A program made the translations under genes and the position numbers. Of a stretch of 40,454 nt of DNA, positions 43-14,653 are shown one piece after another (within the stretch, counting starts at the first letter, position 1; each line of letters opens with the position of its first letter). The notes under the pieces are model-generated. The model worked only from the letters and a program-made list of their open reading frames with translations, had not been told where the DNA came from and searched no databases. The stretch comes from Haloferacaceae archaeon B1-Br10_E2g22 (GTDB lineage: Archaea > Halobacteriota > Halobacteria > Halobacteriales > Haloferacaceae): NCBI GenBank assembly GCA_001563795.1, contig LKML01000008.1, positions 1-40,454 on the forward strand. The letters are read 5' to 3'.

Positions 43-1743
43 CTACAGCAACATTGCAATAACCGCAAAGTGCAGAATAATGATGATGGCAATGGCGACC
101 AGCATCTCATCAGAGAGACCGTCGTCTTTGTCTGGGTCGTCTTTGTCCGTCATATCCTCGGCTGTAGTGTCGGCAGTCGACTTGCCATCAGCACTCACGT
201 CCTCGTCGGTTGTTGTCTGGTCGGCTGATTCGGCGTCTTCGTTTCCATTGTCGGTTGCCGTCGGTTCGTCAACCGAGCCGGTGTCAGTAGTTGTCTCAGC
301 TCCTTGCTTGCTTACATCGGCGACTCGCAGCGTATCTCGAACGAGTGGAATCCTCGAGGCTGTTTGCTCGGCGAGTTCGGCAATAGAGGCCTCCTCGTTC
401 TCCGTGGCGGCTACAATGATTTGCTGTTGTTTCTCGGTAAACGTTGGTTCCGCTGTCGAACTCCTCGAGGCCGTCTCATCGCTGTCGTCTTCAGCGAGTT
501 CAACGCCGTCTTCGTAGGTGTCTCGAGTGTCTCGGACGAGCGGCAGACGTCCACCCGTCCGGTCGGCGATTTCGCGGTTGGTTAATTCGGGGTTCTCGAG
601 GGCAGTCTCCAAGATTGCTCGCTGGCGGTCGGAAAACACATCCGAGGCAGTGGTATCGGGAAGCTCGATCTCGTCGTCATCATCGACGATGATTGCTGTG
701 TCTTCGGCTTCGCCGTCTTCGTTGTCCTTGTCGTCGGTTTGTTCTTCAACGTTGCCGACCCATGGCTTTTCGTCGTACTCATGTTCGTAGATTGTATCCC
801 GCACGAGCGTGATTCGAGTGTCCGTTTTGGCGGCGATTTCAGCAGTTGTCAACTCGGGATTCGAGAGTGCGGCCTCGAGAATCCGGATCTGCGTTCCTGA
901 AAACGCGGCTGTGTCGACTGCTTCCAACACAGCCGGTTCGCCGTCGCTGTCACCGCTGGAGTCGTCGGTCGTCTCTGTGTCGTCCGATTCGTATGCTGCC
1001 AGCGTATCTCGGACGAGGGTGATTCGCGACCAGGTCTGTCTGGCAATCTCGCGGTTGGTCGCCTCCGGGTTGGCCGCTGCGGCCTCGAGAATCTCAAGTT
1101 GTGCGTCCGACCAGTTTTCGGTATCGATCTCTGCGGTCTGGTCGGCTGTCGTCTCCTCGCCAGTGTCGCTTGGAACGTCGTACTGATCAAGCGTATCTCG
1201 AACCAGTGTCACTCGAGCGTTTGTTTGGTCGGCAATGTCTGCGTTTGACAATGACGAATCCTCGGCGGCGACTTCGAGAATGTCTTGTTGGACAGCCGAC
1301 GGCTCGTCGGGGACGCTTGGTGGTGAGTCGGGGTCAGTATCGTCAGTCTCGGTACTATCGGTGTTGGCCTGTTGGGTATCAATTAGATGTCCGTACACAT
1401 CGCGGGTGTCTCGAACCAATGTGAGACGTGCACCTGTTTGTTCGGCGAGTTCAGCGTTCGTTATTTGTGGGTTTTCAGCGACGAGCTCCAAAATCACTTG
1501 TTGTGTTTTACTGAGGGGTTCGCTGCTGTCGTCAGTTGAGCCTTCTTCTGTCGCGGCTTCAGCAAGATCTTCTGGGAGTGTGACATCGTCTTCGTACTGC
1601 TGACGCGTGTCTCTGATGAGTGTAAGACGATATCCAGTCTGCTCGGCGATTTCGCTGTTTGACAGTTCGGGCTTCTGTAATGCGAGTTCCAGAATCTCAC
1701 GTTCGGCATCTGAAAAAATAACCGAATTCGTTGTTTTTCCCAT
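43..1743 (-). CDS. Multi-repeat HTH-like protein, seven 41-aa repeats, acidic linkers, C-terminal transmembrane tail
   Basis: 566-aa ORF. Repeats begin at aa 10, 77, 148, 211, 281, 370 and 435, consensus [F/W/L]SxxQxxILExAxxNPELTNAEIAEQTxxR[IVL][TP]LVRDTxxxY. C-terminus is EMLVAIAIIIILHFAVIAMLL. Confidence 0.9.
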   Translation of the reverse strand: MGKTTNSVIFSDAEREILELALQKPELSNSEIAEQTGYRLTLIRDTRQQYEDDVTLPEDLAEAATEEGSTDDSSEPLSKTQQVILELVAENPQITNAELAEQTGARLTLVRDTRDVYGHLIDTQQANTDSTETDDTDPDSPPSVPDEPSAVQQDILEVAAEDSSLSNADIADQTNARVTLVRDTLDQYDVPSDTGEETTADQTAEIDTENWSDAQLEILEAAAANPEATNREIARQTWSRITLVRDTLAAYESDDTETTDDSSGDSDGEPAVLEAVDTAAFSGTQIRILEAALSNPELTTAEIAAKTDTRITLVRDTIYEHEYDEKPWVGNVEEQTDDKDNEDGEAEDTAIIVDDDDEIELPDTTASDVFSDRQRAILETALENPELTNREIADRTGGRLPLVRDTRDTYEDGVELAEDDSDETASRSSTAEPTFTEKQQQIIVAATENEEASIAELAEQTASRIPLVRDTLRVADVSKQGAETTTDTGSVDEPTATDNGNEDAESADQTTTDEDVSADGKSTADTTAEDMTDKDDPDKDDGLSDEMLVAIAIIIILHFAVIAMLL

Positions 1744-1884
1744 TACTGAACCCTCTGTGTGGTCGGAACACGGTTGGTTGACTGGCCAACGATACTCGCA
1801 GTGATGGATTCTACCCCACTGAATCCGGTTATCATATGACTTACTTACTTTGACCTACAGTAATTAATCTACCCCTTCTTATAT

Positions 1885-13471: not shown

Positions 13472-14653
13472 TTAGAACAGCGATTCGAGTTCGTCGCTGT
13501 CTTCGTTGACGAGATTGCTGAGGTTTTCTTCGCTTTCGTCACGAATCTCGTCGATGTTATCTTGGGCCTCGATGGCGACCTGCTGGAGTTCTTTGATCCG
13601 TGGGACGTTGGTGACTCCCGAAAGCAACACGACACTCGAGACGCGTCCAGAGCCGTCTGTCGGGTAGTCCCCGCCGCGGACTTCCATACTGCCGGTTTGC
13701 TCTTCGAGCCATTTGCGGCCGCGTTCGATTCCTTTGCGGTTGAGATACTTCGAGGGGCCGGCCATCACGAGCAGTGCACGTTCGGTGCCTTCGACCTCAC
13801 ACGGGAGTGTGAGCCGACCGAGCGTCGCTTTGCGAACCAGGCTGGTAATTCGGTTGGTCGTATGTGCGCTGTCTGCGGTATCCGGATCGCTCCCGCCGCC
13901 GCGGAATCGCGAGAGTAGCCCACCGCTTGAGGTTTCTTCGACTTCTTCTTCGGCAAACCCAACCGTCGAGACACCGCCGCCGGCGAGCGTGTTGATGATT
14001 TCGGAGGAATCAACAACCGATTCGGCGACTTCTTGGCCTCGTTGGACTTCACCGGCACCGAACAGGATCCCAAAGCGGCGGACGATCTCGCTGTTGATTT
14101 CGTCGTAACCACTCTGGACGGATTCGCCGGTTTTGCGCCACGAGTCGTTGTCGAACACCAACAGATTGTCTACCTCTCGGACGAACGTCTGGAACGAGCG
14201 AGCGGCGTTGAGCGTATAAATGCCTCCTTCGTCGCTGCCAGGCAGTACGCCGAGCCCATAGACGGGTTCAGTATAAATCCGTTTGAGGTGTTTCGAGATT
14301 ACTGGTGCGCCACCGGATCCAGTGCCGCCGCCGAGGCCGGCGACCACAAGAAAGGCATCGACCTCGTGGACGGGAATCGAATCAATCGAACCTTGGATCT
14401 CGTCGATGTCTTCTTCGGCAATTTCTGCGCCGAGTTCGTTGTCCGCACCGACACCGTGGCCCTTGACGCGCGATTGGCCGATCAGTACGCGATTTTCTTC
14501 TGGGATCTGTTGTAATCCCATGAGATCGGCTTTTGCAGAGTTGACCGCGACAGCCGCTCGAACGATGTTCGAACCGGTTTCGGCATCGTACTCGAGGAAC
14601 TTATCAACGATCTTGCCGCCGGCCTGCCCGAAGCCGATCATTGCGAGTTTCAT
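13472..14653 (-). CDS. cetZ: Tubulin/FtsZ-like CetZ GTPase
   Basis: GFGQAGGKIVDKF and GLGGGTGSGGAPV tubulin signature. Overall haloarchaeal CetZ layout; paralogue number not assigned. Confidence 0.92.
   Translation of the reverse strand: MKLAMIGFGQAGGKIVDKFLEYDAETGSNIVRAAVAVNSAKADLMGLQQIPEENRVLIGQSRVKGHGVGADNELGAEIAEEDIDEIQGSIDSIPVHEVDAFLVVAGLGGGTGSGGAPVISKHLKRIYTEPVYGLGVLPGSDEGGIYTLNAARSFQTFVREVDNLLVFDNDSWRKTGESVQSGYDEINSEIVRRFGILFGAGEVQRGQEVAESVVDSSEIINTLAGGGVSTVGFAEEEVEETSSGGLLSRFRGGGSDPDTADSAHTTNRITSLVRKATLGRLTLPCEVEGTERALLVMAGPSKYLNRKGIERGRKWLEEQTGSMEVRGGDYPTDGSGRVSSVVLLSGVTNVPRIKELQQVAIEAQDNIDEIRDESEENLSNLVNEDSDELESLF

Follow-up and report, generated by a model that had tools for sequence, protein, structure and literature searches.

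Noc of Bacillus subtilis belongs to the ParB family and carries an amphipathic helix at its N-terminus. It is reported to bind scattered chromosomal sites and to bring DNA to the membrane (PMC4331003). The placement of archaeal chromosomes relative to the membrane is largely obscure, and a review of the archaeal cell cycle gives the means by which Sulfolobus achieves DNA segregation as not known (PMC7617429). Transmembrane transcription regulators (TTRs) are defined by a predicted DNA-binding domain and at least one transmembrane region (PMC10269533); in the archaeal TTRs ArnR and ArnR1, a cytoplasmic HTH and a membrane helix are held in one polypeptide (PMC13286277). No mention of tandem or multiple DNA-binding domains was found in the main text of the paper that defines the class (PMC10269533).

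The window, that is, the whole 40,454-nucleotide haloarchaeal stretch analysed here, carries a gene for a 566-aa protein in which an array of seven HTH units precedes a C-terminal hydrophobic helix (Table 1). Its predicted DNA-binding domain matched Pfam HTH_24 over the curated cut-off (E = 2.5e-26, 6 stretches), and hydropathy and the structural model predict a transmembrane segment, kept in all eight orthologues. Because a DNA-binding domain and a transmembrane region together define the class (PMC10269533), the protein is by sequence a TTR. For reasons explained below, we tentatively read it as a multivalent DNA-to-membrane tether, with a probability of roughly 0.45. A characterised family of the same architecture would have spoken against the original prediction; none came up in Pfam or NCBIfam, among PDB structures or in the open-licence papers searched, where we found nothing relevant on tail-anchored or repeated archaeal HTH proteins.

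Table 1 Features of the array gene and its upstream region, in window coordinates
Feature	Position	Strand	Evidence or remark
Gene for the tail-anchored seven-HTH protein, 566 aa	43..1743	minus	stop codon 43-45; contig end 42 bases from the 3' end
HTH unit 1 (aa 10-50)	1594..1716	minus	profile match, self-alignment, model
HTH unit 2 (aa 77-117)	1393..1515	minus	profile match, self-alignment, model
HTH unit 3 (aa 148-188)	1180..1302	minus	self-alignment, model; among the best-modelled units
HTH unit 4 (aa 211-251)	991..1113	minus	self-alignment, model
HTH unit 5 (aa 281-321)	781..903	minus	helix 3 not formed in the AlphaFold2 model; longest linker (48 aa) next
HTH unit 6 (aa 370-410)	514..636	minus	self-alignment, models
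HTH unit 7 (aa 435-475)	319..441	minus	self-alignment, model; among the best-modelled units
Acidic tail linker, predicted disordered (aa 476-544)	112..318	minus	pLDDT <50 from aa 483
C-terminal hydrophobic helix, predicted tail anchor (aa 545-566)	46..111	minus	hydropathy, model, conservation
Conserved upstream block GAAGGnGTAGATTrATTACT...GTATGA, ~50 bp	1831..1880	minus	common to Halohasta and Halonotius

Self-alignment confirmed the predicted seven units of 41 residues without indels, starting at aa 10, 77, 148, 211, 281, 370 and 435, with pairwise identities of 15–26 of 41. The repetition greatly exceeds what chance would give: one 41-mer of the protein matches another, without gaps, at 26 positions, and 100 shuffled versions reached no more than 14. 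The core R[IVL][TP]LVRDT, described beforehand as almost invariant, is kept in six of the seven units, unit 1 reading RLTLIRDT. Counts of length and composition agreed with the expectation of linkers of 22–48 residues (26, 30, 22, 29, 48 and 24 in order) rich in D, E, T and S, which make up 23%, 15%, 15% and 9% of linkers and tail; the net charge of the protein is −105. That the last 22 residues form one hydrophobic helix was likewise upheld, by the helix modelled at aa 545–565 and by Kyte-Doolittle hydropathy, which over 19 residues peaks at 3.12 from aa 548 and stays at or below 0.92 in segments starting before aa 500. No DNA-level tandem repeat was detected in the gene, so the duplications look old; recent tandem duplication was rejected on this ground and on the divergence of the units. 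Some units of Halohasta salina and of Halonotius terrestris resemble each other most within their own protein. There are 43 HTH_24 matches in the window’s genome (84% complete) and no other listed open frame there has more than two stretches, which fits the earlier remark that most haloarchaeal HTH proteins carry one or two units. HMG-box and Mga matches in Pfam were discarded as the HTH stretches over again (none or one passes alone), as was a viral or plasmid origin, with no encoded relative among viral contigs and no plasmid match.

AlphaFold2, with seven orthologues, modelled tri-helical units (H1–H2–turn–H3), helix 3 being missing in unit 5, with the best pLDDT of the array (78–91) in units 3 and 7. 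The full-protein model has disordered linkers and the terminal helix, with block-mean pLDDT of 79–87 over aa 551–566; its low pTM (0.19) is expected because the units are beads on a string. When unit 6 was modelled alone, its helix 3 was incomplete. Foldseek matches were N-terminal domains of Lrp/AsnC proteins, at probabilities of up to 0.99 (rmsd ~1.2 Å over 40 columns) but weak E-values, and when single units were scanned alone, HTH_24 matched 37 of 45 and AsnC-type profiles 10 of 45, in keeping with the HTH assignment for which a profile check of the 41-aa unit had been proposed. A non-HTH fold had been named as the outcome to watch for; the units were modelled as HTH, in the geometry given above. 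The original prediction left the choice between a winged and a tri-helical HTH, of which the tri-helical form stood (Pfam, AlphaFold2 and Foldseek) and the winged form did not: neither AlphaFold2 model contains a strand, and the best HTH_24 stretch stops at profile position 28, where an acidic linker follows. Models and profiles thus support a wingless, tri-helical HTH of Lrp/AsnC type as the predicted unit. The chain outside the units consists of linkers and the tail helix, and Pfam gave no match in the 566-aa protein to a C-terminal RAM (AsnC ligand-binding) domain or to a ParB-type core domain.

Residue 1 is taken here as the first of each unit, a scheme that agrees with HTH_24 numbering. 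Among the 56 tail-anchored units, A24, R35 and D36 are invariant (each 56/56), and V34 (55/56), R30 (52/56) and T37 (51/56) nearly so. Comparison with the HTH pattern puts A24 and V34 in the predicted core, which leaves R35 and D36, on helix 3, as the invariant residues that are exposed. Their invariance on the recognition helix suggests a single ligand common to the seven heads. R35 is common in the genome’s other HTH_24 domains, many of which read TVR; it is R30 and the invariant D36 that distinguish the array units. The acidic look of the units is the normal haloarchaeal one: mean helix-3 charge is −0.1 in array units versus +0.2 (sd 1.8) in 26 further HTH_24 domains that the genome encodes, and acidic character is therefore no argument against DNA binding. 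Purifying selection is clearly stronger on units than on linkers in all six Halohasta pairs (pN/pS 0.27–0.39 versus 0.56–0.72, with pS near saturation in several) and in three of six Halonotius pairs, those with H. terrestris (0.43–0.44 versus 0.61–0.70); the three close Halonotius pairs showed no unit–linker difference, both being ~0.2.

The tail-anchored seven-unit protein was present in 4/4 Halohasta genomes, including that of the window, and in 4/4 Halonotius genomes examined (H. roseus, H. aquaticus, H. terrestris and H. pteroides), the orthologues in genomes of the window’s genus, H. litorea and H. salina included, being ~48–52% identical. The survey of unit number that had been called for gave seven in all eight full-length orthologues; in each, the linker that follows unit 5 is the longest and the last 22–24 residues are hydrophobic. 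Across 394 genomes of the class, the matches listed for the unit profile contained no genome with more than four units outside Halohasta and Halonotius. A distant, tail-anchored four-unit protein of 252 aa occurs in another haloarchaeal genus (L056 and L065–L067; 4/32 genomes, with a fragment in a fifth). It shares VRD units, an acidic tail linker and a C-terminal hydrophobic helix with the seven-unit protein but lacks linkers between several of its units and mostly has His at the R30 position. Paralogues lacking the anchor were also found: a soluble six-unit protein without the tail helix in Halonotius roseus and H. aquaticus (L021:6040-7170 and L062:6365-7510), from which it follows that such an array can work away from the membrane, and an eight-unit protein without tail anchor, split over two frames, in the related archaeal MAG A07HN63 (L023:6007-7610). 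Both the six- and eight-unit paralogues start with alternating unit types.

More remote relatives carry a single unit. A Halonotius protein (L054:2211-4535), with no Pfam match over cut-off, combines a short N-terminal domain, an acidic region, one VRD-type unit and a long coiled coil, and a 260-aa protein (L059) is another one-unit relative. Among the weaker profile matches, in several other haloarchaeal genomes, were small proteins of ~85–145 aa (L031, L033, L035, L036, L037 and L043), of which, as a group, we know of no description. They resemble the array in joining a related HTH through a short linker to at least one hydrophobic helix at the C-terminus; unlike it, they have one unit, and the VRD signature is missing from their helix 3 (SVSYVGKTRREY, for instance). 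In another haloarchaeal protein, a related N-terminal HTH is joined to an Mrr-type restriction nuclease domain (Pfam Mrr_cat; L034:793-1626), and a further protein with such an HTH (L008/L038) looks similar to it in sequence.

The conserved upstream block is non-coding, lies ~90–140 bp 5′ of the start codon and is found once per genome, before the array gene (also in the upstream regions of L060, L016–L020 and L022); it is probably a promoter or operator, judging by position and conservation. Genome scans for a regulon carrying the block returned one good match per genome, the array gene’s own; genome G003 gave an extra match with three mismatches, and a reversed-pattern control in that genome likewise gave one match. 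An RNA hairpin after the block was rejected, with apparent stems that differ by genus and RNA folding z of −1.2 to +1.5. Rfam gave no element at the array gene and only a tRNA elsewhere in the window. An ORF at 13472-14653 (minus strand) looks, by eye, like a CetZ/tubulin-family member (GLGGGTGSGGAP motif), and ORFs near it appear, also by eye, to be probable coenzyme F420 (Cof) biosynthesis genes.

In the window, the array gene is preceded by genes for a DCC1-like oxidoreductase and for a Bat-type regulator. Its orthologues in three further Halohasta species are divergent from orc1/cdc6 (95–97% identical across species), and repeats of the form TTTCAyyGGAAAC...GGTGTG lie in and next to the intergenic region, 3–5 forward between the two genes and 2 inverted at the orc1 side, some ~44 bp apart; going by the archaeal consensus, we take these to be ORB-like. 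The orc1/cdc6 gene and the clustered repeats probably mark a replication origin immediately upstream of the array gene, with putative positions at L060:5280-6103, L016:2981-3822 and L017:3002-3757. No ORB-like repeat was found in the 40 kb of the window, and the best paralogues of the origin-side Orc1 in the window’s 84%-complete genome, in which no close orthologue was found, are 41–42% identical. Within 6 kb of the Halonotius array gene there is neither orc1/cdc6 nor an ORB-like repeat, and no neighbour gene is conserved at the locus between the two genera. Since origin-side placement is absent from the window’s species and from Halonotius, we treat it as one phylogenetic event and as a lead only.

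In the reading we prefer, the C-terminal helix would seat the protein in the cytoplasmic membrane, leaving the N-terminus on the cytoplasmic side together with the seven units, strung on flexible acidic linkers; we infer this orientation because ~540 residues precede the sole hydrophobic segment, none come after it and there is no hydrophobic N-terminus. Each minimal, wingless Lrp-type HTH would, as a monomer, be a weak DNA binder. All seven units have the same reading-face residues (R30, T/P32, R35, D36 and T37), and seven equal heads on flexible linkers could bind with high avidity to the same sequence, or to DNA generally, such that the array would keep the chromosome close to the membrane and bring remote sites together. 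It is on the likely weakness of wingless heads and the avidity that seven of them on flexible linkers would give that our preference for a tether is based. Counted in its favour are the constancy of seven units and tail, the conserved reading face, the constraint on the units, the Lrp/AsnC fold, a helix-3 charge ordinary for the genome, the absence of any sensor candidate besides the tail helix and the four-unit version of the same plan. Counted against it are the missing wing, a reading face with an invariant Asp, which is untypical of DNA contact, the net charge and acidic linkers that could repel DNA, the tail-less six-unit paralogue, the lack of a shared neighbour, the siting beside a probable origin in three Halohasta species only and the incomplete helix 3 of unit 6. 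A stricter version, a dedicated archaeal chromosome-to-membrane anchor whose seven HTH heads share one specificity on flexible linkers and whose number is held by selection, is possible but doubtful. As a whole, the earlier reading of the protein, a tail-anchored HTH array that could be a DNA-to-membrane tether or a scaffold, is partly supported.

The same protein could instead regulate transcription from the membrane, at clustered operators of a small regulon and possibly at its own promoter, with the membrane helix controlling access or release. This would suit its place within the published TTR definition (PMC10269533), the single-copy conserved upstream block, as an autoregulatory operator might be, and the existence of a soluble paralogue. 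We nevertheless think it unlikely, as there is no sensor domain (besides the tail helix, the eight orthologues offered no sensor candidate) and no residue past that helix, seven like read-heads exceed the needs of a one-site regulator, and the upstream block has no further copy that would point to a regulon.

Somewhat more unlikely is a protein scaffold, in which HTH units past DNA binding would gather one protein partner at the membrane, for instance RNA polymerase, a basal transcription factor or a component of the division machinery. Units without a wing and an invariant Arg–Asp pair on the reading face would be at home in such a role, as would the pairing of one unit with a long coiled coil in the Halonotius L054 protein. 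The TFE winged helix, which contacts RNA polymerase, is the best sequence match among solved structures (E = 0.007), but this match is weak: against the NCBIfam models for TFE the protein scores 36.1 bits (cut-off 180, PRK06266) and 29.5 bits (cut-off 149.5, TIGR00373). The genome’s own TFE, with helix 3 reading ELNTVRRALF, has neither R30 nor D36, so we do not build on the match, and a TFE-like RNA polymerase binder was set aside; the fold matches, moreover, point to Lrp/AsnC DNA-binding domains. Least likely, and improbable, is a tether specialised as a membrane-attachment factor for the adjoining replication origin. The divergent orc1/cdc6 gene and ORB-like repeats of three Halohasta species invite it, but those loci are one event, the window’s species has the DCC1-like and Bat genes in their place, with neither the repeats nor a close Orc1 orthologue, and Halonotius has neither gene nor repeats nearby.

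If the stricter version, the dedicated anchor, is the true reading, it would be a way of tethering for which we found no description in Archaea. The conserved array offers a concrete, deletable candidate for chromosome placement in Halohasta. Halonotius, with both a tail-anchored seven-unit protein and a soluble six-unit paralogue, offers a natural contrast by which the membrane’s part could be tested directly.

Each array unit resembles the N-terminal HTH of Lrp/AsnC proteins in helices 1 and 2, by profile, and in its predicted tri-helical fold. It departs from them in having Arg for the usual Ser at position 30 and an invariant D36, and the array differs in having seven copies per chain, no wing, no RAM or effector domain and a tail anchor. 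With the TTRs ArnR and ArnR1 it shares an HTH, predicted to be cytoplasmic, and a membrane helix in one chain, but it has seven HTH units rather than one, an anchor at the extreme C-terminus and no sensor domain. In its proposed working principle the array would resemble Noc; the two proteins are unrelated, and the multivalency of the array would come from tandem HTH units combined with a transmembrane tail.
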